From: a virus
Virus record (IMG/VR): IMGVR_UViG_3300042691_019260
Coordinates: 1-39,537 of that record
Strand: one strand, 5' to 3'
DNA: 39,537 bases
The notes under the pieces are model-generated. The model ran no database searches and was not told where the DNA came from. It saw only the letters and a list, made by a program, of their open reading frames with translations. Within the stretch, counting starts at the first letter, position 1; every line of letters begins with the position of its first letter. Made by a program: the position numbers and the translations under genes. Of the stretch, positions 25,609 to 39,537 are shown piece after piece.

Positions 25609-25618
25609 GGTGGGAAAG

Positions 25619-26158
25619 TTATTTGTCGTCCGGGTCGATCTCGACGGCGCCGTCCATGGCCTTGAGGTCGTCGACGACCTGCCGCATGGAGTCGAGTTGC
25701 TTGCGTCCCTTCTCGACGACGTCGGCCAGCTCGGACAGGGACATCTCATGTTGGTCCTTCTTGCCGGCCTTGCCCAGTTGCAGGGCGGCGGCGACGGCCG
25801 ACAGGCCATGGCCGGACGCCTCGAGGGTCCAGCGTGCGGCCTGGAACCGGACCTGTGCCGGAGCGGCCGGGTCGGTCATCATGGATTGCATGACCTCCCA
25901 CGCCTTGGTGGCGCCGGCGGTCTTGATGTCCATGTCCCGCTTCAGCTCGATCGCCTCCCGGACCTTGTGGTTCTGCAGCAGGTGGCTGCCGTTGTCGGCG
26001 TAGCCGGCGGACTTGGCCGCCTGCAGGGCGTTGCCCCCGTTGGCGACGTAGGCGTCGACGAAGGCGAGCTGCTGCTGGTTGAGCGTGGACTGTTCGGTGT
26101 CGTGGCGGATGATGATCCCGCCCTTCCATTGGTCCTTATCGGTTTTGTTTTTTCGCAT
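25619..26158 (-). CDS. terS: terminase small subunit
   Basis: This 179-residue protein should recognise the packaging site and load the large terminase onto DNA. It shows the Terminase_2-type N-terminal pattern: LNQQQLAFVDAYVANGGNALQAAKSAGYADNGSHLL... KVREAIELKRD (about residues 26-76), a helix-turn-helix built around A-x-x-A-G-Y. A helical oligomerisation region follows, with an acidic C-terminal tail ending EIDPDDK that could contact the large subunit. No large terminase gene follows it, because the sequence changes character about 250 bases downstream. It overlaps the upstream double-HTH gene by 23 bases. Confidence 0.8.
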   Translation of the reverse strand: MRKNKTDKDQWKGGIIIRHDTEQSTLNQQQLAFVDAYVANGGNALQAAKSAGYADNGSHLLQNHKVREAIELKRDMDIKTAGATKAWEVMQSMMTDPAAPAQVRFQAARWTLEASGHGLSAVAAALQLGKAGKKDQHEMSLSELADVVEKGRKQLDSMRQVVDDLKAMDGAVEIDPDDK

Positions 26159-26582
26159 CGAGTATGGTTCGCTTGATCTGTTTCCAGTTGAAGTCGTTGT
26201 CCACGCACCACCGGTGGACGTTGGACACAGGCACGCCGAGCGTGGCGGCGGCCCGGGACATGGTACCGCCGGCCTTGCCTTCGGCCATGATGACGTCGCC
26301 CCACCCGGTCTTGTCGTAGGACGTGCCGACCATGCGGCGGCGCTGCTTGGTGAAGCTGATGCCGAGGATGATGGCCCACCGGCGGACAGTCGCCGGCGTG
26401 AAGCCGAGCTTGCGGGCGGCCTGGGGCAGGCACATGCCGGCTTCGGCGAGACGACGCATGTGCGGCCGGTACTCGTTGATGCGTGCGGCGGTAGACGGGA
26501 ACATGACCTTGCCCCGGAAGACGACGGCGCCTCTGTTCTGGAGTCGGATGATCGGCGACTCGATGACTTCGGGGTTGCTCAT
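26136..26582 (-). CDS. double helix-turn-helix DNA-binding protein
   Basis: The 148-residue protein contains two homeodomain-like helix-turn-helix units. One is at about residues 44-75 (RLAEAGMCLPQAARKLGFTPATVRRW), the other at about 97-127 (IMAEGKAGGTMSRAAATLGVPVSNVHRW). Both have the A-A-x-x-L-G-x-x-x-x-x-V-x-R-W pattern, so they probably arose by internal duplication. It precedes and overlaps the small terminase gene, so it may assist packaging-site recognition or regulate the late switch. The ATG lies in an ATGA overlap with the endolysin gene. Similarity to transposase-type HTHs is an alternative explanation, but no catalytic domain is present. Confidence 0.6.
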   Translation of the reverse strand: MSNPEVIESPIIRLQNRGAVVFRGKVMFPSTAARINEYRPHMRRLAEAGMCLPQAARKLGFTPATVRRWAIILGISFTKQRRRMVGTSYDKTGWGDVIMAEGKAGGTMSRAAATLGVPVSNVHRWCVDNDFNWKQIKRTILDAKKQNR

Positions 26583-27016
26583 TTGACCTTGTTGAGGCGG
26601 AACGCTTTCATGAACTTGGAGTCGGGGACGTTCTGCATGTTGTAGTTATACCGGGCGTAGCCGGCGACGCCAAGGTTCCACGCCAGCCACGTCTCGCCGA
26701 GGCTGGGCATGCGGCCGACCTTGTCTTGCAGCCGGCGGCGGGTATGGGCGAGCCAGACCTTGGCGTAGTCCCGGGCGATCACCGGGTCGGTCGCCTTGCT
26801 GTAGGGGTAGACCGGCAGGCCGAGCTTCTTCCGGACGGCCGAGCAGTCGGTCCAGCTGGCGTGCCAGAACTGGAACGGGCCGATCGCGCGACCTCCGTCG
26901 CCGGCAGGGGTGGCTGCTCCTCGGCCGGAGCTTTCGACTTGTTCGACGGCGTCAACCCATGTGTCGGGCATGGGTGCGAGTAGTGATGCGGCCATGGTTG
27001 CTAGTGTCGTGATCAT
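26579..27016 (-). CDS. lytic transglycosylase-type endolysin candidate
   Basis: This 145-residue protein has an N-terminal hydrophobic stretch (MITTLATMAASLLAPM), possibly a signal or signal-anchor, followed by AVEQVESSGRG with E28 in the place of the catalytic Glu of SLT/goose-lysozyme-type enzymes. Next comes AIGPFQFW (residues 44-51), the usual G-x-x-Q block, and later LAWNLGVAGYARYNYN, matching the third conserved region. It should cleave peptidoglycan glycan strands. The start has the CCCCAAC leader directly before ATG. It lies in the replication-packaging operon, not with the holins, so a virion or host-wall role is also possible. Confidence 0.7.
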   Translation of the reverse strand: MITTLATMAASLLAPMPDTWVDAVEQVESSGRGAATPAGDGGRAIGPFQFWHASWTDCSAVRKKLGLPVYPYSKATDPVIARDYAKVWLAHTRRRLQDKVGRMPSLGETWLAWNLGVAGYARYNYNMQNVPDSKFMKAFRLNKVK

Positions 27017-27037
27017 GTTGGGGACACCGACGCTTGC

Positions 27038-27235
27038 TTACTTCTTCTTCTTGGCAACGTTTTTCTTAACATCTTTCTTCGCCCTGGCCCTGCCCGTGCC
27101 GGACACAGGCAGGCCGCCGCTATCCCCGTACTTCTTAACACCATTCTGCACTATCAGCCGGCACCTCTCCCAGAGGGATAGGTTGTCCCGGCCGTCGTCC
27201 GCCTGCTTGAGGTAGTCGTGGATCTTGCGGTTCAT
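27038..27235 (-). CDS. small basic protein (65 residues)
   Basis: The start at 27235 is supported by an ATGA overlap with the end of the primase-helicase gene. An open frame continuing upstream is only a shadow of that gene. The product is helical at first (NRKIHDYLKQADDGRDNLSLWERCRLIVQNG) and ends in a Lys/Ala-rich tail (RARAKKDVKKNVAKKKK) suited to nucleic-acid binding. Coupling to the primase-helicase suggests a replication accessory role, but no family is recognised. Confidence 0.55.
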   Translation of the reverse strand: MNRKIHDYLKQADDGRDNLSLWERCRLIVQNGVKKYGDSGGLPVSGTGRARAKKDVKKNVAKKKK

Positions 27236-29499
27236 TTCGTCTTGAGGATTGTTCGGGTGTCCTTGTCGAACTGGTACTCGTCCCAGTCCGGCCCGTCGTA
27301 GGCACCGGCATTGATCTCGGCGCCGGCCTCGTCGCTGGCGATCGGACCGGACGGGACGTCGAGCCACTTCTTGTCCTTGCCACCCTTGGCGGCGGCGGCG
27401 ACGAGTGACTTGGCGAGGAGCATCTCCTCTACCATGTGAGAGAACTCGCCTGGGCCGATGGACCGGAGCAGGGCGGGCAGCTCGCCACGCCGGCGGTACA
27501 ATCCGGACTTGGCGTTCTTGCCTTCGGCCGAGTACGGATGGCCCTTGCGTGCGGCCAGCTTGACGGCGGCGAGCAGCCACTCCCGGCGCTCGACGAAGTT
27601 GACGTCGTTGAACTTGTCCTTGGCGGTGACGTCGACGAGCAGGCCCGACTCGGTACGCAACAGCGTACGCTCGCCGTCGTACATCTCCGGGTTGTTCGCC
27701 TTGATGACGGCCATCTTCCACATGTGTCCCTTCTTGGGTACCATGTTCAAGCCCTTCATGCGTCGGTCGTAATCGGAGCAATGCCAGATGCCTAGGACGT
27801 AGCGGAAGGCCGCCGGCAGGGCGGATGATCCGCGGATCGCGGCCTTCATCATCTCGGCGTTGCGGATGGGTTCGTCGCCCTGCTTGCGGATGTGGTGCGG
27901 CACGATGAGGGCGGCACCCAGCTCGCCGCAGACCTGGGAGGCGACACGGGCGAACTCATTGATGACGGTGGCGCTGTTCTCCTCGCCGTGCAGGACGCTG
28001 TTCAAGGTGTCGATGACGACGAGCTGCAGGTTGGGGATCTGCTTGAGCAGGGCGAAGAACTCGAGCCACTTGCGGGACGGCCTGGACTCCTGCGTGCGGG
28101 GATCCTTCTCGACGAGGGAGAACGATCCGCCGGAGTTGATGGTGGGCAGGATGACGAGGTCGTCACCGGCCTCACGCCGGCGGCTGCCGTCCGGGTCCAT
28201 GTCGGCGAGGCGGATGTGCAGCTCGTCCTTGTCGTCCTCGGTGGTGAGGATGACGACGGCACCCTTACGCATGACCGGCATGCCGCCCCATGTGTCGCCG
28301 TCACGCTTGGCCGCCACCTTGAGGGCTAGGTCCAGCATGAGGAAGGTTTTGCCGGCGCCGCCTTCGGCGACGAGCAGGCCGTGCTTCGACGCCAGCACCA
28401 GCTTGTCGACGAGGAACTGGCGGGACGGGCGGTCGCCCATGGACCACCGGTGAGCGGCCCAGACGGCCAAGCCCTGGCCCTGCTCGAGGATAGGCTTCTC
28501 CGGCTCGGGCATCGGGCCGTGGGTGGCGATGTCGTTACGCAGCAGGCCCTGCCACTCGGTGTTGAAGCGGGCCTCCGGCCAAGGCGGATCCATGTGGGCC
28601 TGCATCCACCCGTAGGTGGCAAGGCGGGCCTGCTCGAGGTCCATCTTGCCGATGCGGGCGGTGTGGATGTAATGCCCGGCGACGCCGTTGAAGGCGGACC
28701 ACCGGGTGATGGCTCCCTCGGAGCCGGCCTTGATGTCCTCGGTAAGCAGATCAGCGGCGGCCGGTCCGGCCGGCGTGGTCATGGGGTCGGCCGGCTTCTC
28801 GACGATGGCCCACTCGCTGGCCGGCATGAGCTGGGCGGCGATGCATGGGCTGGTGACGACGGCCTGCCATGCGAAGCTCTCGACGACGACCGGACGGCGG
28901 ACGCCGTTCTTGCCATGCACCGATCCGGCGAGGCGGATCGGCTGATGCGCGCGGCCGTAAGGGTTGCCGTCGACGCCCAGCCCGAACTGGATGTCGGCCC
29001 CGGCCTTGCGTGCGATGGCGTCGCGGATGGCTACGACCTCGGCAACGGTGACGTCGTTGACCTGCCAGTAGGCGTGCCGCTTGGCGGCCCCTTCCTCGGT
29101 GGTGCCGCCGGACAGCACGACCATGGCCGGCTGGCCGAAGTGCTGCACGACGAAGTCGAGCTTGGCCTGGGTGTCGCCGGTGTCGAAGTCGGCGCAGATG
29201 GTCTTGAAGACGTCGCAGTTCTCGGCGGTGCCACGCTCGTCCTTGAGGGTGCAAGGTACGATGAAGGTGGCGACGTCGTGCTGTCCCCACCGGGTGGCGT
29301 GGAAGATCACCGACGAGACGAAGCGTTCCCAGCCCAGCGTCGCCGGCTCGAGGATGATGTCCTCACGGAAGATGCCCTCGCGGGTGGTGCCTTTCTCGCC
29401 GATGCCCCGGAGGCAGACGTAGCCCTTGGCGTCCTTGCCGAAGAGCATCTCGAGGTGGGACTCGATGGCGTCGTGGTCGATGTGGATGATGTCGGTCAT
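27232..29499 (-). CDS. primase-helicase (AEP primase + RepA-like ATPase)
   Basis: This 755-residue protein probably primes and unwinds phage DNA. The N-terminal ~200 residues fit an archaeo-eukaryotic-type primase as in RepB-like proteins: D104-x-D106 in CADFDTGD, H142 in RHAYWQV, and RLAGSVHGKNG at 189-199. The middle holds a RecA-fold ATPase: Walker A GGAGKT at 380-385 (K384), then VVILTTEDDKDELHIR and Walker B LVVIDTLNS. The C-terminal ~170 residues are unassigned. It heads a tight group (the next gene overlaps by ATGA) and starts with the CCCCAAC leader. No separate polymerase is visible in the window, so the host enzyme or an off-window gene must supply elongation. Confidence 0.75.
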   Translation of the reverse strand: MTDIIHIDHDAIESHLEMLFGKDAKGYVCLRGIGEKGTTREGIFREDIILEPATLGWERFVSSVIFHATRWGQHDVATFIVPCTLKDERGTAENCDVFKTICADFDTGDTQAKLDFVVQHFGQPAMVVLSGGTTEEGAAKRHAYWQVNDVTVAEVVAIRDAIARKAGADIQFGLGVDGNPYGRAHQPIRLAGSVHGKNGVRRPVVVESFAWQAVVTSPCIAAQLMPASEWAIVEKPADPMTTPAGPAAADLLTEDIKAGSEGAITRWSAFNGVAGHYIHTARIGKMDLEQARLATYGWMQAHMDPPWPEARFNTEWQGLLRNDIATHGPMPEPEKPILEQGQGLAVWAAHRWSMGDRPSRQFLVDKLVLASKHGLLVAEGGAGKTFLMLDLALKVAAKRDGDTWGGMPVMRKGAVVILTTEDDKDELHIRLADMDPDGSRRREAGDDLVILPTINSGGSFSLVEKDPRTQESRPSRKWLEFFALLKQIPNLQLVVIDTLNSVLHGEENSATVINEFARVASQVCGELGAALIVPHHIRKQGDEPIRNAEMMKAAIRGSSALPAAFRYVLGIWHCSDYDRRMKGLNMVPKKGHMWKMAVIKANNPEMYDGERTLLRTESGLLVDVTAKDKFNDVNFVERREWLLAAVKLAARKGHPYSAEGKNAKSGLYRRRGELPALLRSIGPGEFSHMVEEMLLAKSLVAAAAKGGKDKKWLDVPSGPIASDEAGAEINAGAYDGPDWDEYQFDKDTRTILKTK

Positions 29500-29532
29500 G
29501 TTGGGGGATGTTAGTCCTGGGCGTTGGGCGTC

Positions 29533-30099
29533 CTAGGTCAACTCCACAATCTCGCCACGGGCGGCCGCATCCTCGGCGACGGCCCGGGCAACCTCGGCGT
29601 CGAACTGACGCAGCTCGTCCGGCGGGACGACGAAGCTCTGCCTCTCGGCGCCGCGGAAGTACTGCAGCCGGTCCGGTCTGATGACCTCGCCCCTGCCGGC
29701 CCAGCCCATGAAGGCGATGGCCCGGCCGTGGTAGTCGACGTGCATGAGGACGAAGATCTGGACGTCCTCCTTGGTGGTCATCACGCCGCCGATGAGGTAG
29801 GCCGGGATGAGCAGGTGAGGGTTGGGGTGGTGGCTGGCCTTGACCTCGATGGACTCCCCGTTGGGGGCGACGAAGTCGACCGACCCGGAGCGTGCCTCGA
29901 TGGTGTCGTCACGCTCCATGCCGAAGAGCCGGGCGAAGCCGATCTCCCCGAGCAGCCCGACCAGGTCGGTGACCTGGCCGGATTGCCGGCCGACCTTGCG
30001 GTCGCAGATGCCGGCCGCGCGCGACGCCTCATGGCGTGCGGCTGCTTCGGCTTCGGCGTGGACCATGACGTGTTCCGGAAGCTTGATGACGAGCTTCAC
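29533..30099 (-). CDS. PD-(D/E)XK nuclease-like protein
   Basis: This 188-residue protein has E52 in LLGEIGFARLFG, D75 in GSVDFVAPNG and E85-x-K87 in IEVKASHH. That order of E, D and ExK matches the PD-(D/E)XK nuclease core. The LIPAYLIGGV and IQIFVLMHVD-like strands after it complete the fold. Single-domain proteins of this type act as Holliday-junction resolvases or restriction-like nucleases; the sequence does not decide. The GTG start at 30099 overlaps the upstream TGA (GTGA). It lies between the Cas4-like nuclease cluster and the primase-helicase. Confidence 0.65.
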   Translation of the reverse strand: MKLVIKLPEHVMVHAEAEAAARHEASRAAGICDRKVGRQSGQVTDLVGLLGEIGFARLFGMERDDTIEARSGSVDFVAPNGESIEVKASHHPNPHLLIPAYLIGGVMTTKEDVQIFVLMHVDYHGRAIAFMGWAGRGEVIRPDRLQYFRGAERQSFVVPPDELRQFDAEVARAVAEDAAARGEIVELT

Positions 30100-30395
30100 A
30101 GGGAGTGGATAAAGATCGGGGTATGCGCCCCGACGTGGCTGCCGGTGACGTTGAAGTTCATGTGTTCGATGGCATCCTCCTCGGTCATGCCGTCGGCCAT
30201 CAGCACCCGGACGCAGGTGTTGTACTCGTAGACGACCCGGATGGGGCTGAAGTCGGTGATGCCCACGATGGCGGCGTCGAAGCCGTCGGCGGTGAGCGTC
30301 GACTCGTCCATCTCCTCGAGCCGTTCGGTCAGTTGTTTGCGGTTCTCTTTAGCCATCTGCTTGAGGTGGCTCTTCTCGGTTTTGTGGATCTTCAT
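30096..30395 (-). CDS. small conserved-looking protein (99 residues)
   Basis: The start at 30395 (MKIHKTEKSHLKQMAKENRKQ) is chosen for its CCCAACCCAAC leader directly before the ATG. Upstream codons in frame are Pro/Arg/Ser-rich shadow sequence. The N-terminal half is a charged helix. The C-terminal half (RVVYEYNTCVRVLMADGMTEEDAIEHMNFNVTGSHVG) has the look of a conserved small phage family, but I cannot name its function. Its stop overlaps the start of the nuclease gene that follows. Confidence 0.6.
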   Translation of the reverse strand: MKIHKTEKSHLKQMAKENRKQLTERLEEMDESTLTADGFDAAIVGITDFSPIRVVYEYNTCVRVLMADGMTEEDAIEHMNFNVTGSHVGAHTPIFIHSL

Positions 30396-30411
30396 GTTGG
30401 GTTGGGAAAGA

Positions 30412-31191
30412 TCAGCGCAGCCAGCCCGGGGTGATGTCGGTCGAGGGCTTGGCCGGCGTGGGTGTGCCGTGGCACCGCTTCTTGTAGTCGCAGAACTTGC
30501 ATTTGAAGTCGTCGGCCCCTCGGCCGGCCTTGCCAAGCTCCTCGGGGGTGCCGGACTTGACGATGCGGACGGCCCGGTCGATGTAGCCCTGGCAATCGCG
30601 GGCGTTGAACTTGACGATCTCGATCCAGACCTCGCCGGTGTCGCGGTTGATGGCCGTGAACAGGCACGACTCGAGGTCGTGGTAGCCCATGTAGATCTGG
30701 ACCTGGGCGTAGTAGGTGGGCTTGAAATCCTTCAGCCCGTTGCGCTTGAAGTCGGAGAAGGTCTTCGACCCGAGGGCCTTGTTCTCCCACAGCATAGGGT
30801 ACTTGACGCCGGCGATGGCCGGGCCGCCATGGATGACGCCGTCGAGGTGTCCCTTGAACTTGCCTTCGGCGTCGCTCATGCCGATCTGCCGGCCGTCCTC
30901 GGTGTGCGTCTGCAGGTCGAAGCCGGCGAGCTTCATGTACTGGGCCATGCGTTCCTCGCCGTCATGCCCCATGTCGAACATGCGGAGGGTGTTGCCACGG
31001 AAGCCGGCGCCTTCGTCCTTCGGCGTCATGTGGAACGAGTAGGCCAGCTGACGCTCGCACTCGCCGCCGATGGCGGAAGCTCCGAGGTACTGGCGCGGGA
31101 CCTGGGCGGCCACCTTGGCCTGCAGGGTTTCGTCCAAGATCGTGATGATCTGGGCGGTGATCGGGTCGGGTTGTGTTTCGGGTTTGAACAT
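30412..31191 (-). CDS. Cas4/RecB-like iron-sulfur exonuclease
   Basis: The ATG at 31191 (MFKPETQ) follows the helicase stop by two bases. The 259-residue product has the Cas4/RecB-type PD-(D/E)XK core: D117 in KGHLDG, E136-x-K138 in LWENKAL, and Q163-x3-Y167 in YAQVQIY. It also has four cysteines in the usual order for a 4Fe-4S cluster, C45 early and C231, C234 and C240 near the C-terminus (CKFCDYKKRC). Such proteins resect DNA ends and commonly accompany phage annealing proteins. Here it sits directly after an SF2 helicase and shares an operon with Sak4-like and DUF669-like proteins, so a recombination role is likely. Confidence 0.8.
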   Translation of the reverse strand: MFKPETQPDPITAQIITILDETLQAKVAAQVPRQYLGASAIGGECERQLAYSFHMTPKDEGAGFRGNTLRMFDMGHDGEERMAQYMKLAGFDLQTHTEDGRQIGMSDAEGKFKGHLDGVIHGGPAIAGVKYPMLWENKALGSKTFSDFKRNGLKDFKPTYYAQVQIYMGYHDLESCLFTAINRDTGEVWIEIVKFNARDCQGYIDRAVRIVKSGTPEELGKAGRGADDFKCKFCDYKKRCHGTPTPAKPSTDITPGWLR

Positions 31192-31195
31192 AAGG

Positions 31196-32863
31196 TCAGA
31201 TGCCAAGGACCTTGGCCTTGACGTGCTTCTCATGCCACTTCCATGTCAGCGCACAGGTCGCGCGGTACTTGGTCATGCCCATGGCGGAGATGGGGTCCAG
31301 CCCCAGCCGGACAAGCTGCATGTCGGACGGAGGCTCGGTCAGCCAGCGTTTGGATTTTCGGGAGGCATCCTTGTCGCCGTGTTCCCGGAGGTAGTCGTCG
31401 GCCGTGGCGATGGCCTGGAGCCGGTCGTCGGTCACGGCCAGCAGGGTGGCGCTGGTGTACCGCTCGTCGCCGCCGACGGCGTACTGCTTGCCGTTGTGCT
31501 GCACGACGCAGGCCCATGCGGTCATGGCCGATGCGATGGTGATGACGCCGTCCCAGAAGTTCTCCCACTTGAAGGGGGACATCTCGAGGATCTCGACCTC
31601 GGTCAGCTGGAAGTTCTCGAGGGCGCCACGTTCCTCGGCTTCCTTCTGCCGGCGGGCGACGCCGTCGAAGATATGGTCGCAGGCCGGGCAGATGGCGACG
31701 CCGAGCGGTACCTGCATGCCGCAGCTCGGGCATGGCTTGAGCTTGGCGGCCCCTTTGATCGGCTCGAGTACGACCTCGGTGTCGAGGCACCCGTGGGTGA
31801 GGATGGAGTAACCGAAGTCGAGGACGATGCAGTCGGACTTGACGACGCCGGGGTGCTTCTCCGGGTCGACCTTACGCAGGCCGCGTCCGATCATCTGGAT
31901 CATGGTACTCTTGTAGCTACACGGCCGGAGCAGCAGCACGCACGACACGGTCTGGCAGTCGTAGCCCTCGGTGAGGACGGCGACGTTGACCAGCACCTGG
32001 GTGCGGTCCTTCTCGAAGTCGGTCAGCGCGCGCTTGCGGGCGTTGTCGGACAGCCCGCCGTGGACGATGTCGGCCTTCACGCCGGCGTCGCAGAACGCCT
32101 GGGTCACATGCTCGGCGTGGTCAACGGTCGAGCAGAAGACGACGGTCTTCCGGGTGCCGGCCTTGTCCTTCCATTCGGCGATGACCTTGCTGGTCACGGC
32201 GTCCTTGTCCATGATGGCCTCGACCTGGGCCATGTCGAAGTCGGCGACGGTCTTGCGGACGTTCGCCAGCTCGGACCGCAGGCCGCAGTCGATGACGAAG
32301 ACGCGGGGGCGGACGAGGTTGCCGGCCTCGATCAGCTCCTTGATGGAGATGACGTCGGCGACGTTGTCGAAGACCTGCTTGAGGGCTTTCTTGTCGGCCC
32401 GCTGGGGGGTGGCGGTGACGCCGAGTACCTTGACCTTCGGGTTCAGTTCCTTGGCCCGGTCGAGGATCCGCAGGTAGGAGTCGGCGGCGACATGGTGGCA
32501 CTCGTCGATGACGACGAGGTCCATGGCCGGCATGGTGGCTAGGTTGTCCTCGCGGCACAGCGTCTGCACCATGGCGAAGGTGACGCCGTCGGACCACTTC
32601 TTGCGGTCGGCGGCGTAGATGTCCGACTGGGCGTCCGGGTCGAACCGCTTGTAGGTGGCGCGGTTCTGGGCGACCAGTTCGTCGCGGTGCTGGAGGACCA
32701 GCGAACGCATGGGGGTGCCGTCACGCTTGGCGAACTTGATCGCGGCCGAAAGCATGACGGTCTTGCCGGCGCCGGTAGGTGCGACGCCGAGGGTGTTGCC
32801 CTTGTCGGCAAGGGCATAGCATAGACGGTGGACGAAGTCCGCCTGTCGTGGTCGGAGCTTCAT
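31196..32863 (-). CDS. SF2 (DEAD/DEAH-type) helicase with zinc ribbon
   Basis: The ATG at 32863 gives 555 residues; a TTG two codons earlier is less likely. Motif I is PTGAGKT (29-35), motif II VIDECHH, motif III VTATP, and motif VI QMIGRGLRK, so this is an ATP-dependent superfamily 2 helicase or translocase. A CxxC pair (CPSC... CPAC) after the helicase core forms a zinc ribbon. A further ~150 residues follow that I cannot assign. It is likely to unwind or remodel DNA in replication-coupled recombination together with the Cas4-like nuclease downstream. The region before its start is full of inverted repeats. Confidence 0.8.
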   Translation of the reverse strand: MKLRPRQADFVHRLCYALADKGNTLGVAPTGAGKTVMLSAAIKFAKRDGTPMRSLVLQHRDELVAQNRATYKRFDPDAQSDIYAADRKKWSDGVTFAMVQTLCREDNLATMPAMDLVVIDECHHVAADSYLRILDRAKELNPKVKVLGVTATPQRADKKALKQVFDNVADVISIKELIEAGNLVRPRVFVIDCGLRSELANVRKTVADFDMAQVEAIMDKDAVTSKVIAEWKDKAGTRKTVVFCSTVDHAEHVTQAFCDAGVKADIVHGGLSDNARKRALTDFEKDRTQVLVNVAVLTEGYDCQTVSCVLLLRPCSYKSTMIQMIGRGLRKVDPEKHPGVVKSDCIVLDFGYSILTHGCLDTEVVLEPIKGAAKLKPCPSCGMQVPLGVAICPACDHIFDGVARRQKEAEERGALENFQLTEVEILEMSPFKWENFWDGVITIASAMTAWACVVQHNGKQYAVGGDERYTSATLLAVTDDRLQAIATADDYLREHGDKDASRKSKRWLTEPPSDMQLVRLGLDPISAMGMTKYRATCALTWKWHEKHVKAKVLGI

Positions 32864-33240
32864 GACCAAAATACGATAGTGTCGATTTTGGTAATGCGCC
32901 GTTCGTGGCGCATTACTTCCCGCTCGGGAACATTAGGCGCCACTTGTGGCGTTTTAGGTCTGAATGTTCCCGCTCGGTAAAATGGAGCGGCGACCAGGCT
33001 ATGAAACCTTGCACCCGTAAGCGGTACGGGCGACTGGCGGCCGCTGAAAGAGGGGGGCGGGGAGAGAGGCAGCCCCAACAGCTGCATCATCCCTGCGAGC
33101 GTGGACGGAAGTGTCTGGACCGACGGCCAGGTTGTCGTCCCGCTCTCACCCTGTTTGTTAGAAAGAACAGACCAGCTCGACCTGCATGCCTTGCAACTTG
33201 ATGCTGACAACCGTGCATGAAATGTCAGCAACATTCTCAT
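32860..33240 (-). CDS. doubtful ORF across the inverted-repeat region
   Basis: A 126-codon frame starts at an ATG preceded by CCCAACCCACCG, a leader like those of real genes nearby. It ends in an ATGA overlap with the helicase start. Both points favour coding. Against it, the product is Ser/Pro-rich without a clear fold, and the frame runs through several hairpin-forming sequences. It may be a leader ORF, or not translated at all. Confidence 0.25.
   Translation of the reverse strand: MRMLLTFHARLSASSCKACRSSWSVLSNKQGESGTTTWPSVQTLPSTLAGMMQLLGLPLSPPPSFSGRQSPVPLTGARFHSLVAAPFYRAGTFRPKTPQVAPNVPEREVMRHERRITKIDTIVFWS
32866..32977. repeat. cluster of nested inverted repeats before the helicase gene
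   Basis: Four adjoining elements are visible. CCAAAAT/ATTTTGG arms flank 32866-32891, directly before the helicase ATG. TAATGCGCC/GGCGCATTA is a nine-base-pair stem with a six-base loop (32892-32915). TTCCCG-CT-CGGGAA lies at 32917-32930. CGGGAACATT/AATGTTCCCG (32925-32972) encloses a further CGCCAC-TT-GTGGCG stem (32938-32951). TTCCCGCTCGG occurs twice, at 32917 and 32967. No run of T follows any stem on either strand, so simple terminators are unlikely. An origin of replication, an operator array or a structured leader RNA would fit. Confidence 0.8.
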
Positions 33241-33279
33241 CGGTGGGTTGGGCAGGTCGAGGGTCTTGATGACGCCCCT
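32978..33279. other. rest of the gap, two further inverted repeats
   Basis: Apart from the doubtful 126-codon frame this stretch has no convincing gene. It holds CCCGTA-AGCGG-TACGGG at 33014-33030 and TGCTGACA/TGTCAGCA arms with a 13-base spacer at 33202-33230. A purine-rich stretch (gaaagaggggggcgggg) lies near 33045. I see no tRNA and no promoter I would defend. Confidence 0.6.
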
Positions 33280-33888
33280 TTAGAAGGGGGCGTTGCCGGC
33301 AGCCGGCGGCTTGATCACCCAGTTCGGGGCGTTGCCGACCGACGGAGCGGGAGCGGCGAAAGCCTGCGAGCGGGCTTCGGCCACGGCCTGCTGGCCGCCG
33401 ATCAGCTTCTGGTAATCCTTGAAGCCGGACTTGGAAGCCGGGTTCGGGGACAGCCACTCGGCGACCTTGTTCTTGTCGGCGTACGCCGGGTCGGTGTTCT
33501 TCTCGACCTTGACCTTGATGGCGACGCGCTGGCCGTCCATGCCGGTCATGATGGCGAGCGTATCCTTGCCGGCGAAGGCATTGTACGACGCCGGGTCAGA
33601 CGGCTTGAACCAGCCGGACGACTCGAAGATGCGGGTGATGGACGTGATGCCCATGCTGCGCCACTTCTCGCCGTTGCGGTCGTCCTTGATGTCGGGCAGC
33701 ATGTCGAAGACCTTGCGGCCCTCGTAGTCGCCGCCGACGATCGTGAGCGTCACCGGGTAGTAGGTGCCGCCGGACGACTTGGACTGCTTCGCCGCGCCAA
33801 CCGTGAGGATGGCCCAGGCGAGCGTGCCGTTGGGGATGAGTTCCGGAGCCGAACCGGCGCCGGAGTTGATGGAGAACGGGTTTTCCAT
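33280..33888 (-). CDS. DUF669-like ssDNA-binding/recombination accessory protein
   Basis: This 202-residue protein has a central beta-rich part with GTYYPVTLTIVGGDYEGRKVFDMLPD (about residues 41-66). That is the pattern of DUF669-type phage proteins usually encoded next to Sak4-like ATPases. A role as single-strand DNA binding or annealing partner is inferred from this pairing. The C-terminal ~60 residues are Ala/Pro/Asn-rich and disordered-looking, ending GNAPF without the acidic tip of bacterial SSBs. The ATG follows a C/A-rich leader (CACACACACC) without a Shine-Dalgarno. It lies 27 bases after the Sak4-like gene. Confidence 0.6.
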   Translation of the reverse strand: MENPFSINSGAGSAPELIPNGTLAWAILTVGAAKQSKSSGGTYYPVTLTIVGGDYEGRKVFDMLPDIKDDRNGEKWRSMGITSITRIFESSGWFKPSDPASYNAFAGKDTLAIMTGMDGQRVAIKVKVEKNTDPAYADKNKVAEWLSPNPASKSGFKDYQKLIGGQQAVAEARSQAFAAPAPSVGNAPNWVIKPPAAGNAPF

Positions 33889-33915
33889 GGTGTGTGTGTT
33901 TCTGGGTGGGTGAGA

Positions 33916-34767
33916 TTACTTGGCCGCCGGCAGGGTGGTGACGACGGAGGTGTCGACGCGCTTGCCGGTGTGGATCTTCTTGATGAGGGCGCCGAGGTCC
34001 GGGGCTTCCAGCAGCTCGAGGCGGCCGGAGCGGTCCTTGGCGGGGTAGCCCCACGGGTTCTGCTGCTGGCAGCAGAAGGCACGGTAGAGCTGACCGTCCT
34101 CGGTCTTGAAGTTCTGCAGGGTGATGACCTGATCGAAGATGCCCGGGAGTTCACGGCCGGTCTTGGAGCCTTCGACCTGCGGGTTCCAGCTGACACGCTT
34201 GAGGTCGTCGACCTCCTGGTCGAGGATGCCCGAGACGACGATGGACTTGGGGCAATGCTGCAGGTGGGTCAGCCAGCGGATCATCTCCTGCCCGAGCAGG
34301 CCGTAGGCACCGCGGGTGTCCGGCTTGCCGTCCTTATTGAACGTCTCCGGCTGGACCTTGGACCACTTGAAGCACTCGCGCGAGGCGACCGTGATGGAGT
34401 CGATGAAGATCGTCTCGTACTTGGTGAGGTCGATGGCGGCGAACGCCTTGGCGACCGCCTCATAGACCGGCTTGGAGTAGGCGCCGTTGGCGTCGGACGG
34501 GTCGAAGCCGCCGATGTACAGGGCAAGCGCGCGGGCGATCTCCCACGGGTACTTGTTGTACTCCTGGGCGACGGCGCGGACGTCGATCACGTCGCCGGCC
34601 CAGTCCTGGATGGCGAGGGTGCCGGCCTCGAGGTCCACGAAGAGGGTGGTCTTCGGGTCGAGGGTGCGGGCCTGCGTGGTCTTGCCCACGCCGGCGGGGC
34701 CGAACAGGGCGATGTTGACTTTGGGGACGAGCTTGAGGCGATCGTCAGCCTTGATGATTTTGATCAT
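33916..34767 (-). CDS. Sak4-like RecA-fold ATPase (AAA_24 type)
   Basis: This 283-residue protein has Walker A GPAGVGKTT (residues 23-31, K29), an acidic strand TLFVDLEAG, and Walker B ETIFIDSITV around residue 130. This is the compact RecA-like core of Sak4-type phage single-strand annealing ATPases. Lacking other RecA domains, it probably works with the DUF669-like protein encoded next. It is the second functional recombination protein after the HTH and the 148-residue genes in this operon. The start shows CCCCCAACACC-ATG, the leader shared by several genes of this half. Confidence 0.75.
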   Translation of the reverse strand: MIKIIKADDRLKLVPKVNIALFGPAGVGKTTQARTLDPKTTLFVDLEAGTLAIQDWAGDVIDVRAVAQEYNKYPWEIARALALYIGGFDPSDANGAYSKPVYEAVAKAFAAIDLTKYETIFIDSITVASRECFKWSKVQPETFNKDGKPDTRGAYGLLGQEMIRWLTHLQHCPKSIVVSGILDQEVDDLKRVSWNPQVEGSKTGRELPGIFDQVITLQNFKTEDGQLYRAFCCQQQNPWGYPAKDRSGRLELLEAPDLGALIKKIHTGKRVDTSVVTTLPAAK

Positions 34768-34782
34768 GGTGTTGGGGGAGAG

Positions 34783-35229
34783 TTAGGAGGCGAAGGTGAA
34801 CTTGGGGTCGGAGTACTTGACGGTCCGGGCGTCGATCAGCTTGTCGAGGAGCTTCTCGTCGCGGACGGCGTTGAACGCCTTCTCGGGGACCGTGAACTTG
34901 ATGGCGAAGAGACGCTCGACCTCGTCGTAAGGCATGGACTTGGCGATGGCCTTGAGCTTCTCGCTGTCCCAGTCGCGGCGGGCGGTGATCTCGCCGGTGA
35001 GCTTGATGCCTTCGACCTCGAAGGTCATCTGGCCGTGGTTCTTCTCCATGCCCTGGAGGTGGGAGGTCAGCATCGCGTTGAAGCGCGAGTGCAGTTCCTG
35101 CTGGATGACGTCCATCTGCTCCTTGGCGGAGTCGATGACGGTCTGGTGGACGACGACCGCCTCGCGGAGTTCCGCGATGGTCAGCTCGTTGACGGCTTTA
35201 GCAGCCGGCTTGGTCTTTTTGGGTTTCAT
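34783..35229 (-). CDS. hypothetical early protein (148 residues)
   Basis: The ATG at 35229 (MKPKKTKPAAK) is chosen since upstream frame is shadow of the HTH gene. It follows a CCCCCCACCGAC leader. The N-terminal half is a long charged helix (ELREAVVVHQTVIDSAKEQMDVIQQ). The C-terminal half is mixed, with YDEVERLFAIKFTVPEKAF and RTVKYSDPKFTF. The conserved-looking end suggests a family found beside phage recombinases, but I cannot name it. It overlaps the HTH gene by 32 bases and lies 15 bases before Sak4. Confidence 0.55.
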   Translation of the reverse strand: MKPKKTKPAAKAVNELTIAELREAVVVHQTVIDSAKEQMDVIQQELHSRFNAMLTSHLQGMEKNHGQMTFEVEGIKLTGEITARRDWDSEKLKAIAKSMPYDEVERLFAIKFTVPEKAFNAVRDEKLLDKLIDARTVKYSDPKFTFAS

Positions 35230-35488
35230 GTCGGTGGGGGGAAAGCTCCTTGCCGGCGTTGGGGGCCGAGCGGAGGACAAAGGTATTGAGGTCGAGCGGC
35301 CGGCGTTCGTGCTGCGCCAGCTCCATGAGCTGGACCAGACGCACGGCCGGGATGTTCTGACGCTCCATCCACTTCTCGATCGTCTTGACCGAGAGCTTGG
35401 TACCACGGGCTTCGAGCCGGCGATGCAGCTCGCCGCGACCACCGAAGTGGGCGACGAGTTTGCGAGTATCGATGCGGCTGGAGTTCAC
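35198..35488 (-). CDS. HTH regulator at the head of the leftward operon
   Basis: This 96-residue protein starts at GTG, with TCCCAAC directly before it. Residues about 13-50 (HFGGRGELHRRLEARGTKLSVKTIEKWMERQNIP) form a helix-turn-helix of the phage Cro/CI-like kind. RLVQLMELA and a short tail follow; there is no protease or dimerisation domain as in LexA-like repressors. It is the first gene of the replication operon and diverges from the integrase gene across 120 bases. It is therefore the best candidate for the switch controlling both. A full-length CI-type repressor is not visible in the window. Confidence 0.65.
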   Translation of the reverse strand: MNSSRIDTRKLVAHFGGRGELHRRLEARGTKLSVKTIEKWMERQNIPAVRLVQLMELAQHERRPLDLNTFVLRSAPNAGKELSPHRHETQKDQAGC

Positions 35489-35608
35489 GTTGGGACCAGT
35501 TGGATGAGTAGAGTTCTGCCTACTTCATGTCGGTCGTCAACGTCTAAAAAACATTTTTTCTGAAGCATTGACTATCCTCCAATATGTAGGGACTGTTACT
35601 GCCCCAAC
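35489..35608. promoter_or_regulatory. divergent control region between HTH regulator and integrase
   Basis: This 120-base AT-richer stretch separates divergent starts, so it should hold both promoters. AAAAAA-CA-TTTTTT at 35546-35559 is a perfect inverted repeat suited to a regulator site. TTGACT at 35568-35573 matches a -35 hexamer toward the integrase, but no good -10 lies 16-18 bases on. CCCCAAC directly precedes the integrase ATG. Confidence 0.45.
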
Positions 35609-36682
35609 ATGCCCAAGAAGAACAATGGTCCCCGGCTCGACCTTAACGAAGCCGGCATCTACGAGATCCGCTGGACGGAGAACCGCCGCAGCAAACGCAA
35701 GTCCACCGGCACGGCGAACCACGCCGAAGCCCAGGCCGCGCTAGGCCGGCACCTGCTCGGCATGAACGAGCAGCGCAAGCCCAGCCCGTGCAACGTCGCC
35801 GAGGTGCTGTCGACATATCAGTCCGAACATGTCGACCACAAGGTGATCGCCAAGGAGCGGCAGGAAGGATGCATCGACGTGCTTACCGCCGGCCTTGGCA
35901 AGCTCGACGTGCAGCAGCTGACGCCGTCGGTCATCATGGACTACCGCAAGCGCCGCAAGGCCGGCACGGTCAACGGTCACGTCGCCGGCGACAGCACGCT
36001 CCGCCGGGAACTGAACTGCCTCATCGCCGCCATCAATCATGCGGCCAGGCATCGCCGCATCGCGCAAGCCGACGTGCCGCACATCGCCCTGCCGGACGCC
36101 CCGCCGCCGAAGGACCTGTGGTTGAACGAGGTCCAGCTCGACGCCTTTGTCGCCGCCGCCTGCAAGCTATTCCCGGGCGAACGCATGTCCAGGCTTTACC
36201 GGTTCGTCGTGATCGCGTCGGAGACTGCGGCTCGCAAGACCAGCGTGCTGACGCTACGCTGGCAGCAGGTCGACCTCGCGGCCAGGCTGATCCACTACCA
36301 GAACGACGGCAACCAGCGGACCAAGAAACGCCGCGTGCCGGTGCCGATGTCGGACCTGCTGTTCGACGTGCTTACCCGTGCGTACGGCGAACGCACGCAG
36401 GACGAGTGGGTGCTGGATACTCCGTACTCCATCCAACACCATTTTGAGGCGCTGGTGAAAACGGTCGGAGCAGGCTTCGATGACGTCACGCCGCACACCC
36501 TGCGTCACACCTGGGCGACCCAGGCCGCGCGTGCCGGCGTGCCGCTGTTCGAGATCGCCGGCGTACTGGGCGACACCCTCGCGACGGTCATGCGCGTGTA
36601 CGCCCACCATTGCCCCGACCACCTTCGCGGTGCCGTGAACTTCCGCGCCGCACGAAACGCATCGCAAGAGCTATCGCGATAA
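35609..36682 (+). CDS. int: tyrosine recombinase / integrase
   Basis: This 357-residue protein would integrate and excise the phage genome. A basic N-terminal arm-binding part (about 1-50) and a SAM-like core-binding domain (about 60-150) precede the catalytic domain. There R209 lies in TAARKTSVLTLRW, H296-x2-R299-H300 in HTLRHTW, and the nucleophile Y331 in VMRVYAHH. The second conserved His/Trp, expected after G321 in the LGH position, is Asp322 (VLGDT). It is the only + strand gene in the right half. Its 3' end overlaps a convergent membrane-protein gene. No attachment-site core repeat could be recognised by eye. Confidence 0.85.
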   Translation: MPKKNNGPRLDLNEAGIYEIRWTENRRSKRKSTGTANHAEAQAALGRHLLGMNEQRKPSPCNVAEVLSTYQSEHVDHKVIAKERQEGCIDVLTAGLGKLDVQQLTPSVIMDYRKRRKAGTVNGHVAGDSTLRRELNCLIAAINHAARHRRIAQADVPHIALPDAPPPKDLWLNEVQLDAFVAAACKLFPGERMSRLYRFVVIASETAARKTSVLTLRWQQVDLAARLIHYQNDGNQRTKKRRVPVPMSDLLFDVLTRAYGERTQDEWVLDTPYSIQHHFEALVKTVGAGFDDVTPHTLRHTWATQAARAGVPLFEIAGVLGDTLATVMRVYAHHCPDHLRGAVNFRAARNASQELSR

Positions 36683-36950
36683 GGATCAAAGCCACGCTGA
36701 ACACGCCGACGATCTTCTCGGTGTCTTCAAAGCCGAGTCGTGCGTTCTCCAGCATGCCCTCGGCTTTTTTGTTGTCCGACTTGATGCTGTCCTCGGTGAT
36801 GAGGACGGCCATCGTCATGGGGTCGGTGAGGGCTTGGCGTATGTCCGACATGATCATCCAAAGTCTTACGCAGATGAGGGACGCCATGAGCAGGGTCCCT
36901 ACCATCGCCACCTCCAGGGCCGGCAGCTTACCTCTTTGCTCGTTTTCCAC
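36588..36950 (-). CDS. two-span membrane protein of the right lysis cluster
   Basis: This 120-residue protein starts at GTG (36950), overlapping the holin gene by 23 bases. Hydrophobic segments lie at about residues 13-34 (VAMVGTLLMASLICVRLWMIM) and 81-99 (VGVFSVALILIAIALAMRF), joined by a charged helical loop. The basic tail (RRGSSRHREGGRGNGG) lies in the part overlapping the integrase by 95 bases antisense. Its position directly after a holin suggests an antiholin or holin partner, but no family is recognised. Confidence 0.55.
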   Translation of the reverse strand: MENEQRGKLPALEVAMVGTLLMASLICVRLWMIMSDIRQALTDPMTMAVLITEDSIKSDNKKAEGMLENARLGFEDTEKIVGVFSVALILIAIALAMRFVRRGSSRHREGGRGNGGRTRA

Positions 36951-37296
36951 GGGTGGCTCCTTTCTTTACCTTCGCAACCTCGGCCTGGCCCTTGGCCTTC
37001 ACCCATTCGATGGCGAAGTCCACGATGTGGGTGGCTGCCGCCCCGGATACGCCCAGGCATGCGGTCTTCAACCCCTCGGCCATGCTGACCTCCTTCAGCC
37101 CCTGGCTGACCAGCCATGCCACGATGCCGGCGGCCAGGACGTGCCGGGCTGCCTTGCCCCAGGTCATGGTGTCGTCGTTGGACAGGAGGATCTTGGCGAC
37201 CATGCCGGCCATGCCGATCACGGCTGCCGTGAAGCCGCCCTGCCGCAGCTGGTCGAGCAGCGTCACGCTTCCGGTTGCTTCTTCTACGGGCTTCAT
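36928..37296 (-). CDS. holin-like membrane protein (right copy)
   Basis: The ATG at 37296 lies in an ATGA overlap with the metallopeptidase stop, which decides the start. The 122-residue product has hydrophobic segments around residues 23-40 (FTAAVIGMAGMVAKILL), 54-70 (VLAAGIVAWLVSQGL) and 80-100, then a Lys/Arg-rich tail (KVKKGATRGKRAKR). The first span, G(F/W)xxAxxGMxGMxA(K/R), and the spacing of later spans match the holin-like protein at 20668-20976. The two are homologous although their DNA differs in composition. It should open the inner membrane at lysis. Confidence 0.65.
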   Translation of the reverse strand: MKPVEEATGSVTLLDQLRQGGFTAAVIGMAGMVAKILLSNDDTMTWGKAARHVLAAGIVAWLVSQGLKEVSMAEGLKTACLGVSGAAATHIVDFAIEWVKAKGQAEVAKVKKGATRGKRAKR

Positions 37297-37538
37297 CGTT
37301 TCTTGCGGTAGCCCTGCTTCCACAGCACGGCGGTGATCTCCCTGGAGACGCGGTCAACCTTGACCTCGCTGGCCTTCCAGTCGGCCAGGTGAAGGGCTTC
37401 GTGTATATAGACGCGCAAGGTTTCCTGCTGGCCGACGATCCGCGGATCGATCTCGATGGTGTTCGTCTCCTTGCAGGCCAGGCCGCCGGTGTTGCCCGGT
37501 AGCTGGCGGACGATTACTTTAGGCGGGCGGCGTTTCAC
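37293..37538 (-). CDS. small HExxH metallopeptidase-like protein
   Basis: The 81-residue product starts at GTG. It contains VYIHEALHLADW around residues 43-54, a zinc-binding HExxH, with downstream acidic residues (SEVKVDREV-like helix) that could give the third ligand. N-terminal strands (KVIVRQLPGNTGGLACKETNTIEIDP) complete a minimal SprT/M78-like fold often seen as tiny phage proteins. Being encoded between lipoprotein and holin suggests action at the cell envelope, yet it lacks a signal peptide. It overlaps the lipoprotein gene by 20 bases and couples to the holin by ATGA. Confidence 0.6.
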   Translation of the reverse strand: MKRRPPKVIVRQLPGNTGGLACKETNTIEIDPRIVGQQETLRVYIHEALHLADWKASEVKVDRVSREITAVLWKQGYRKKR

Positions 37539-38262
37539 GGCGGAGTAGGCGCCAGGATTTTATTCCCATGACGACTGCGAGGTTTAGGGCCAGGAAGACC
37601 AGGGTGCCGAGCAGCACCCACTCGGATTTTTCCCCGCCGAAGAAGTCGATGAGCGGCCGGGCCGTGGCTGCGACCAGCACGCCGGCTCCGATGGTCAGAC
37701 CAGCGACCCACTTCTGGATGCCCAGGAAATGCCCAAAGAGCAGGGCCAGGATGCCGGCGCCGATCGCATAGGTACCGTACTCGGTCAGCTTGCGGGCCGA
37801 CTCCGCCAGGCTGGCAGCCTTGTCGGCCGCTTCCTTGTCGGCCCTGGCCTGCTTGGCTTGCGACTCGGCGATGGCGCGGGCGGCCTTCTCCGCGGCGACG
37901 TCCTTCTCGAGGGCGTCGGTCTTCTTATCCAGGGCGACCTTCTCGGCCCGGAGCTTTTCCAGGTCCTTGGGGTCGGGCTTGGCGATCCACGCCTTGAACT
38001 TCTCGACGTCCTTGGCGGTAGGCTCGCCGGCCAGGCTGGTCAGCCCCTGCGTCGCGGAGTCGTACAGGGACAGGGCTGCGGCCGGCGCTGACAGGCTGCT
38101 GCGGATGGCCTTGAGGATAGCCGCGTCCTCGATCACCTCGTCCTGCCACAGCTCGAGCAGGGCGGTCTGCTGGACCGCCGGCGGCGGAGGCAATGGCAAC
38201 GGCTTATCCTCCGGCGGTGTCGCGCAGCCGGCCAGCAGGAGGATGACCGCGGCCAGCCTCAC
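37519..38262 (-). CDS. lipoprotein with C-terminal membrane segments, u-spanin-like (right copy)
   Basis: The GTG start overlaps the upstream TGA (GTGA). MRLAAVILLLAGC is a lipoprotein signal with lipobox LAGC, followed by a Pro-rich linker. A long Ala/Lys/Glu coiled coil spans about 75-150 (EKLRAEKVALDKKTDALEKDV). Three hydrophobic segments lie at about 157-178, 185-205 and 214-234, with a basic tail. This is the plan of a unimolecular spanin with extra spans, as in the 238-residue protein at 22790-23506. The 247-residue length and neighbouring holin agree with a lysis function. A tethering lipoprotein without fusion activity is the main alternative. Confidence 0.55.
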   Translation of the reverse strand: MRLAAVILLLAGCATPPEDKPLPLPPPPAVQQTALLELWQDEVIEDAAILKAIRSSLSAPAAALSLYDSATQGLTSLAGEPTAKDVEKFKAWIAKPDPKDLEKLRAEKVALDKKTDALEKDVAAEKAARAIAESQAKQARADKEAADKAASLAESARKLTEYGTYAIGAGILALLFGHFLGIQKWVAGLTIGAGVLVAATARPLIDFFGGEKSEWVLLGTLVFLALNLAVVMGIKSWRLLRRETPPA

Positions 38263-38396
38263 TCGCCCTTGATTTCGTCGACGAGGGTCTTGGCCTTGGC
38301 TTCAACGTTCTGAAGCTTGGCGGCGTTGTTTCGATACGACAGGGCGCCGACCGCGACACCCAGGATGAACGAAAGGGCGGAGAAGATTAGGATCAT
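38259..38396 (-). CDS. 45-residue single-membrane-span protein
   Basis: ATG at 38396 opens MILIFSALSFILGVAVGALS, a membrane span, followed by a charged helical tail (KLQNVEAKAKTLVDEIKGE). The TGA overlaps the GTG of the lipoprotein gene (GTGA), so it is probably translated in series with it. Length, topology and cytosolic or periplasmic helix resemble the 45-residue protein at 4562-4699, but residue identity is low. It may be a small lysis component. Confidence 0.6.
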   Translation of the reverse strand: MILIFSALSFILGVAVGALSYRNNAAKLQNVEAKAKTLVDEIKGE

Positions 38397-38442
38397 TCCA
38401 TCATGATGTAAGCCAAAGCCGGCCAGTCAACCAGCTCGGGAC

Positions 38443-38826
38443 CTACTTCTTGTCGGTTTTCAAACGGGACCTTTTTGACACCCATTTAGAAACTTTTTCA
38501 AGCTGCTTTGGGGTGGCGTTGGACTTGATGGCGTTGGCGATATAGCTGATGACAGCGATGTTCCCGGGGACGTACCCCAGTCGAGGGTCAAGCCGGTCGA
38601 TCGACGGCGAGCTGTTGCGTCGCTTCTTGTCCTTGCCCTGCTTTAGCCGAAGGCCCAACACCGGGCATCGTTTAGGTATGCGGATATCGTCTTCGGTGAT
38701 GGAGAACGGGATGCCCGTCCTGCTGGCCCGCTGCTTTGCCAGCTGAAGGAGGACGCGGGCCGGATGCGCCGCCCTGTAGCCGCGTATCCATTCCGCCCTA
38801 TCCTCCCTTGTCTGTGCTATCGTCGT
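38443..38826 (-). CDS. HNH-type endonuclease frame without a standard start codon
   Basis: The frame from 38826 down to the stop at 38443 encodes about 127 residues with a complete-looking phage HNH/endonuclease-VII-like family pattern. This is a helical N-terminus (TREDRAEWIRGYRAAHP), GIPFSITEDDI, IPKRCPVLGL, and then SPSIDRLDPRLGYVPGNIAVIS followed by ANAIKSNATPKQL. The C-terminal part from a TTG at 38661 is too short to be whole. No ATG, GTG or TTG occurs between the TAA at 38829-38827 and the CP motif. That TAA ends the upstream gene in this same frame. Readthrough, a rare start such as ATA (38820), or a decayed start are possible. Confidence 0.65.
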   Translation of the reverse strand, partial: TTIAQTREDRAEWIRGYRAAHPARVLLQLAKQRASRTGIPFSITEDDIRIPKRCPVLGLRLKQGKDKKRRNSSPSIDRLDPRLGYVPGNIAVISYIANAIKSNATPKQLEKVSKWVSKRSRLKTDKK

Positions 38827-39162
38827 TTAGCGCCACTTGCCCGTCCGCAGGAGCAGGCCGATGACGCCGTAGTTTGCGAGGTCTGACCATGAGTCGTTGA
38901 CTGACTCATTGTTCGCTTCGCCGTCACCCTTCATCTCCTTTGTGAGGAGGTTCCGGATGCGGCTGACCTTGTCCTGGGTGCGTACCATCACGCCCAGTTC
39001 GCCGTTAAGGCTGATGTTGCTGCTCCCATAGTCCTGCTGCTTGCGATCCATGAGGAGGGCAAGCGGAAGGATGGCGCGGAGGTATTCCCGCCCCATCTCG
39101 GTCTTCAGACCAAGGTCGGAGTGCAGCTTGTCGGCCAGAACGTCGGTATCAATGTTGGGCAT
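38827..39162 (-). CDS. Nmad1/DUF1599-like protein
   Basis: The ATG at 39162 (MPNIDTDVLADKLHSDLGLK) gives 111 residues and avoids an upstream shadow extension. Central motifs DRKQQDYGSSNISLNGELGVMVRTQDKVSRIRNLL and ESVNDSWSDLANYGVIGLLL match the DUF1599 pattern as I know it. This is the family renamed nucleotide modification associated domain 1, with acidic residues E and D around a helical bundle similar to dUTPase/MazG-like folds. It may act on nucleotides. It is followed, in the same frame after its TAA, by the HNH-type frame. Confidence 0.65.
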   Translation of the reverse strand: MPNIDTDVLADKLHSDLGLKTEMGREYLRAILPLALLMDRKQQDYGSSNISLNGELGVMVRTQDKVSRIRNLLTKEMKGDGEANNESVNDSWSDLANYGVIGLLLRTGKWR

Positions 39163-39211
39163 TGTGCCTGGATAGTGGACCCATCCATGCCGCGCCGTCA
39201 ACAGGTTTCCC

Positions 39212-39537
39212 TTATTTCTCGCCGATAAACTCGTCACGGACGGAGTCCTGCCGCATGGCCTGGTTAACCATGAAGCCAAGGAACGGGTGCGCCAATGAAG
39301 CCCCACCCACGGCGGCAGGCTTGATGCCGGCGTTGTAGATCTGCTTCTTTGCGGCACGTTCGCCGGCTTCGCCATCCTGGGTAAGGCCGCCAACCGCAGC
39401 CAGGGTCTTGCCGGCAGCCTCCAGGCCAGGACCGACTGGGAATTGGCCGCGATTAACCAGCTTCGCGAGGTACTCGACCTTCGGGCCGAAGACGCCGGCG
39501 TACGACGCGGAGTCGAAGAGCTTGCGCCAGTCTTCCA
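39212..39537 (-). CDS. C-terminal end of a gene entering from the right (partial)
   Basis: An open frame enters from the right edge and ends with TAA at 39214-39212. The visible ~108 residues include KLVNRGQFPVGPGLEAAGKT, a Gly/Ala-rich middle (LAAVGGLTQDGEAGERAAKK), and an end resembling SLAHPFLGFMVNQAMRQDSV. It looks like the C-terminus of a larger soluble or virion-associated protein rather than an enzyme. As the last gene before the lysis cluster it may be the end of an internal virion protein of the right-hand phage, by analogy with the left half. This cannot be proved from the fragment. Confidence 0.5.
   Translation of the reverse strand, partial: EDWRKLFDSASYAGVFGPKVEYLAKLVNRGQFPVGPGLEAAGKTLAAVGGLTQDGEAGERAAKKQIYNAGIKPAAVGGASLAHPFLGFMVNQAMRQDSVRDEFIGEK

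Follow-up and report, generated by a model that had tools for sequence, protein, structure and literature searches.

The question addressed here is what function is served by the 416 bases (32864-33279) that separate the stop codon of a DUF669-like gene from the start of a helicase gene in the replication operon of an uncultured phage. The window analysed is a stretch of 39,537 nucleotides (IMG/VR record IMGVR_UViG_3300042691_019260, positions 1-39,537), and all coordinates refer to the whole of it. The original prediction, made from the sequence of the window, described a gene-free island of inverted repeats (32866-33230) and suggested a replication origin, a structured leader RNA or an autoregulatory operator array. 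The gap proves to contain a member of an RNA family that is strongly supported by covariation, is missing from Rfam 15 and is tied to the ssb-helicase junction of a widespread group of uncultured phages.

Organization of the locus and its flanking genes

The upstream gene (33280-33888, minus strand) encodes a probable single-strand DNA-binding protein, as judged from profile matches and a structural model. DUF669 gave weak matches in nine of 12 relatives, the AlphaFold model of the protein adopts an OB fold (pLDDT 80), and in the PDB this model is best matched by PrgE, which binds ssDNA (Z 11.3, rmsd 3.1 over 127 residues). The gene adjoins a Sak4-like gene, as does that of the DUF669 protein of HK620, a demonstrated SSB (PMC5928155). 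The downstream gene (31196-32863, minus strand) encodes a superfamily 2 DNA helicase (PHROG 16, ResIII and Helicase_C) and has no Shine-Dalgarno sequence. Cultured phages yielded no near relative of the region: neither DNA comparison nor the SSB-like protein revealed a homologue there, and their helicase relatives are less than 60% identical; in bacterial genomes the helicase relatives are mostly alphaproteobacterial.

Searching with both flanking proteins yielded about 120 loci; in many of them a helicase gene comes after the DUF669-like gene on the same strand, with a gap of roughly 150-580 nt between the two. Read on the operon strand, the gaps show a recurring core of about 106 nt, with a long hairpin (H1) and a TCTTT tail before it and variable cassettes after it.

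The window itself is of uneven composition. Positions 1-24800 (GC 0.36-0.54) carry structural genes on the plus strand, and positions 24850-39537 (GC 0.61-0.68) carry replication genes on the minus strand. The major head protein of the window is encoded by none of eight relatives of 38-47 kb, and the match to a 99.98% identical contig (L123) ends at 24848. The left 24.8 kb may be foreign, through either a chimeric assembly or a recent mosaic.

Inverted repeats, hairpin H1 and exchangeable cassettes

The predicted inverted repeats are present where they had been placed. They include a perfect 10-nt arm pair (32891-32900/32907-32916), an 18-nt arm pair (83%) enclosing another hairpin (32917-32934/32963-32980), further arm pairs at 32861-32872/32885-32896, 32986-32997/33034-33045 and 33199-33209/33223-33233, and two copies of TTCCCGCTCGG at 32917 and 32967. 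On either strand the region 32866-33230 has a more stable fold than any of 100 dinucleotide shuffles (z -3.9 and -4.1), and its part with the strongest palindromes of the gap (32866-32985) reaches z -6.9 when folded alone. The observation that a T-run terminator is lacking also held: no strong intrinsic terminator was detected, and the one weak site (33185-33167) compares with 1.0 expected by chance.

H1 (33170-33266, minus strand) is a long stem after the upstream stop codon, with arms 33252-33261/33176-33185 and an apical stem; relatives have a long hairpin of variable sequence at the same place. Between H1 and the core lies a single-stranded tail, TGTTCTTTCTAAC (33157-33169, minus strand), whose consensus G[T/A]TCTTTnAA follows H1 in most relatives. 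The GATCTTT-type motif was considered as a promoter or start signal and rejected, the other sites found in the right half of the window lying within coding sequence or at its margins.

Three cassettes follow the core on the minus strand: cassette A (32986-33045), a structured element common to L006; cassette B (32891-32980), comprising the 18-nt arms, the 10-nt hairpin and the doubled TTCCCGCTCGG that the original prediction had stressed; and cassette C (32865-32892), a hairpin ACCAAAATCGACACTATCGTATTTTGGT beside the helicase start, common to L006, L036 and L146/L265. Apart from this virus, just two near-identical contigs have the palindromes of cassette B, and the palindromes within 32866-33045 as a whole are swappable, lineage-specific cassettes that are exchanged or absent in relatives. 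Some reappear in other relatives in differing combinations, and essentially none occurs elsewhere in phage genomes (three of 431 BLAST matches lay outside the gap). The stressed structures are real palindromes, but the most conserved structure of the gap lies beside them, at 33048-33153. Since they are lineage-specific, the proposed DNA operator array is unsupported, and of the autoregulatory idea only a putative RNA-level version survives.

Other members of the family carry further elements in their gaps. In L005 a tRNA-Met (CAT) gene (6936-7008) occupies the cassette position between core RNA and helicase; ARAGORN found no tRNA or tmRNA in the window. Two cassettes that recur downstream of the core, one of two hairpins (a short hairpin, a GAAACTACAAC-like linker and a hairpin with a CUAC/GGCAC-like internal loop) and one of the form GGCCCTCT...ATGGTTTCTCTC, were seen among L018, L024, L029, L035, L036, L147 and L331 and look like further structured RNA families. 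A GC-rich element of about 100 nt (GCAGGGTGGTYGGGA...GTAGGCCGCCGCCG) is common to cassettes of L035, L036 and L265, and the L036 element had no match in Rfam. At the same junction a gene for a small helical protein is located between the DUF669-like gene and the core in L005 and L050, and before the helicase in L279, L281 and L285; a remnant of this gene (TGTTGCTGACATTT), and no more of it, seems to be kept inside H1 of the window.

The core is a conserved three-way junction RNA

The core (33048-33153, minus strand, which is the operon strand; about 106 nt) forms a three-way junction in which P1, P2/P3 and P4 meet. P1, the closing helix (33055-33151), pairs 33151-33147 with 33059-33055; 97% of its cells are paired and double changes occur in four of five pairs. 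P2 (33097-33145), likewise supported by covariation, pairs 33145-33136 with 33107-33103 and 33101-33097, and carries the hairpin P3 (33115-33130) with the loop CCGUCGGU (33126-33119), of which GUCGGU is near-invariant across the family. P4 (33060-33093) has a conserved UGA/CCUCUC internal loop and a UGUUGGG terminal loop (33080-33074), and its outer four pairs are 100% paired with double changes in all four. The minimum free energy fold of the window core agrees with the covariation structure. By single-sequence folding the core is unremarkable (z -1.6), and it is seen only by comparison.

The original prediction had named covarying base pairs in relatives as its check, and the core (33048-33153) passed it. 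In 20 close sequences 96.5% of the cells of the 30-pair junction are paired and 22 of the 30 pairs show changes on both sides (covariation score 0.585, against 0.243 in shuffled and at most 0.11 in slid controls). For 49 aligned copies the corresponding values were 93.5% of cells paired, compensatory changes in 26 of 30 pairs and a score of 0.65 (0.19 shuffled, 0.04-0.11 slid), in an alignment that was fitted to the structure and is biased towards it; RNAalifold applied to this fitted alignment predicted 27 pairs, 25 of them with double changes. Compensatory changes were still found in 26 of 30 pairs among 21 lineages of less than 85% identity. G-U cells are more frequent than A-C cells when the operon strand is read, 23 to 3 in the close set and 30 to 14 in the 21 lineages, and this identifies the operon strand as the sense strand of the RNA. 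On these alignments, 33153-33048 is a conserved structured RNA of the minus strand. Compensatory changes, the G-U bias and the same-strand position upstream of the helicase gene strongly support the structured leader or intercistronic RNA among the functions first suggested for the gap.

Two readings of the fold were discarded. In distant copies GUCGGUUCCAUUCCGGC in the P3 region resembles a T-arm, and a tRNA-like reading was ruled out by the intermediate and distant members L153, L286, L290 and L292, which keep the P3 stem without T-arm pairing. A kissing interaction between the P3 and P4 loops has no supporting covariation, and in copies of the L286 type P3 persists without the P4 loop. Truncated forms of the RNA, 62-72 nt long, were seen in L063, L065, L067, L068, L069 and L145, in which P1 and the GUCGGUU hairpin seem to be kept and the P4 arm to be absent.

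Distribution of the RNA family

A covariance model (R1) built from close relatives alone finds distant relatives outside its training set, each located just before a helicase of 54-58% identity. Tallied over several covariance-model searches, the core RNA is present in about 80 distinct IMG/VR contigs (E < 0.05), and in every contig checked it is situated between the DUF669-like OB-fold gene and the helicase gene, on the same strand. Pattern scans that used no protein or helicase information gave 16 new covariance-model matches at E<0.1, all 16 between a DUF669-like gene and a helicase gene. In each of ten relatives of 38-47 kb a single strong copy is present, and one of these has a further weak match (E 0.095). 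At the gathering score Rfam 15 has no match in the window and 14 relatives, and at relaxed E-values it gave nothing credible for the core regions, the weak matches to sX7, Atu_C3 and MIMT1_1 (E 0.7-8) being due to chance; the family is previously unlisted in the sense of its absence from Rfam 15. A search of 385 genomes of Alphaproteobacteria, the class of the best bacterial helicase match, with covariance model R2 revealed no prophage copy under strict filters and without a positive control.

An open frame through the RNA leads to the helicase start

The description of the gap (32864-33279 from stop to start) as gene-free has to be qualified, since a 126-codon open frame (33240-32860, minus strand) passes through the core and the cassettes to a TGA overlapping the helicase ATG (ATGA). 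In the close group with the helicase ATGA the frame ending in this TGA is open through core and cassettes in 33 of 33 sequences, the other two frames being open in 3/33 and 0/33; with five of five members found later it is open in all 38 close relatives, and inserted cassettes, the longest of about 320 nt, leave it open. Dinucleotide shuffling gave a summed log10 P of -9.5 for the openness of the frame over 17 arrangements, which share cassettes and are non-independent. Subclades differ in the frame in which they read the RNA, and their peptides accordingly differ too; what is kept, as far as sequence comparison tells, is a stop-free route to the helicase start. If so, selection would act on translatability and not on the peptide, which would be unusual. 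The distant RNA-bearing relatives, with a helicase ATGC, have no coupled frame, and stops are found in most.

The helicase start in RNA-bearing phages is without a Shine-Dalgarno sequence, whereas helicase relatives that lack the RNA mostly have AGTAAGGGGG-like ones; this contrast is weakened by the many other genes of this phage that are also without one.

Proposed function and alternative explanations

We consider it reasonably probable, from the conservation described above, that the gap contains a cis-acting structured mRNA element that sets helicase expression, in this clade via translational coupling. Coupling is the likely mode since the helicase gene has no Shine-Dalgarno sequence and its ATG overlaps the stop codon of the frame through the RNA. 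The core would be transcribed with the operon and fold into the three-way junction (P1; P2 capped by P3; P4), and would display the conserved loops of its two hairpins, CCGUCGGU and UGUUGGG. It would follow the 3'-end hairpin of the SSB-like gene, with helicase expression set separately from that of the upstream genes. Ribosomes would have to cross the RNA and reinitiate at the ATGA, and stabilisation of the fold by any factor would lower helicase synthesis, the most plausible candidate ligands being the helicase and the SSB-like product of the preceding gene. Given the OB fold of the upstream protein and the known phage SSBs that repress mRNAs, SSB-sensing by the core RNA would be an attractive mechanism. 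If the RNA controls helicase synthesis, it shows how phages may set the SSB/helicase ratio from one operon.

As expected of a cis-acting leader, synteny and strand upstream of one gene are fixed. The distance from core to ATG, however, varies from about 5 to 330 nt across relatives owing to inserted cassettes, which is odd for a translational operator. The distant relatives, which keep the RNA and lack the coupled frame, likewise speak against the proposal. We tentatively put forward, as a possibility only, a frame-indifferent module in which the folded RNA, set in a leader frame whose peptide is irrelevant, gates reinitiation at the helicase start lacking a Shine-Dalgarno sequence in response to SSB or another replication signal, and is followed by exchangeable RNA cassettes that keep the frame open.

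The variable distance also keeps alive two other RNA-based explanations. Cleavage of the operon transcript between H1 and P1 could release the core as an independent small RNA, with targets in trans in the host or the phage. The compact closed P1 helix with H1 just upstream, the U-containing tails after H1, the core and the cassettes, the conserved loops that fit a binding partner and the lack of a fixed position relative to the ATG all agree with this. We nevertheless regard it as rather unlikely: a trans-acting gene is expected to move and the core was never found away from the helicase gene in about 80 contigs, and the coupled frame of the close clade would be left unexplained. It is distinctly unlikely that the core is a put-like RNA, binding the transcribing polymerase so that it reaches the helicase genes despite the barriers that the hairpin and the cassettes form. 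There is a phage precedent in HK022 put (PMC9378689), the core has the sense orientation, hairpins with U-containing tails stand before and after it, and for such an RNA the distance to the ATG is irrelevant. Yet put comprises two stem-loops (about 70 nt) located close to early promoters and the core is a mid-operon three-way junction, no promoter-like site was found, the only terminator signal is at chance level, and covariance model R2 has no match in HK022.

Very unlikely, too, is a small protein-coding gene for which the structure is secondary, even though the frame is open in every close relative and a small coupled gene occupies that place in some of the relatives that lack the RNA. The frame products of L035/L052 and L050 end in C-x2-C...C-x2-C motifs, so a real product is possible in some members. 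However, neither frame nor peptide is the same in relatives, the RNA being read in different frames by subclade; the window product has no Pfam or PHROG match, the frame is stopped in most distant relatives, and the compensatory changes explain the conservation. A DNA element, namely a replication origin or an initiation hairpin recognised in single-stranded DNA, is highly improbable despite the replication genes on both sides and the fact that ssDNA hairpins can covary too, since the GC skew shows no inflection or sign change at 32.9-33.2 kb, the operon strand tolerates G-U more than A-C, no iterons or AT-rich unwinding region were seen in the gap, and the conserved features, including RNA-like internal loops and junction, follow the operon-strand RNA fold.

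Comparison with known systems

The proposed cis-acting element can be compared with the leaders of ribosomal-protein operons, which act by entrapment and translational coupling. In both cases a structured mRNA and coupled start codons would set expression, the ribosomal-protein leaders differing in that they serve cellular genes; we know of no sequence relation between them and the core RNA.

HK022 put is likewise a cis-acting folded RNA of a phage replication/early operon (PMC9378689). It is defined by its two stem-loops, an early promoter and the zinc-binding domain of the polymerase beta' subunit, and the core RNA departs from it in structure, in the absence of a promoter-like site and in covariance-model similarity.

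The T4/RB69 gene 32 operator resembles the core RNA in being a structured mRNA before the start codon of a phage replication gene, with an SSB as the natural ligand candidate (here by analogy), and the T4 pseudoknot also overlaps the upstream reading frame (PMC535899). The gp32 operator is a 28-nt pseudoknot with UUAAA repeats before the SSB's own gene (PMC535899), whereas the core RNA is a three-way junction located after the SSB-like gene and before the helicase gene, so the analogy is one of function only. M13 gp5, according to PMC535899, represses translation of gene 2 mRNA, which encodes a different replication protein, and is likened to the present case by function alone, as an SSB acting on another replication protein. 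Together with T4 gp32, a phage SSB that represses a replication gene via structured mRNA (PMC535899), it would be the closest functional analogue of the RNA described here.
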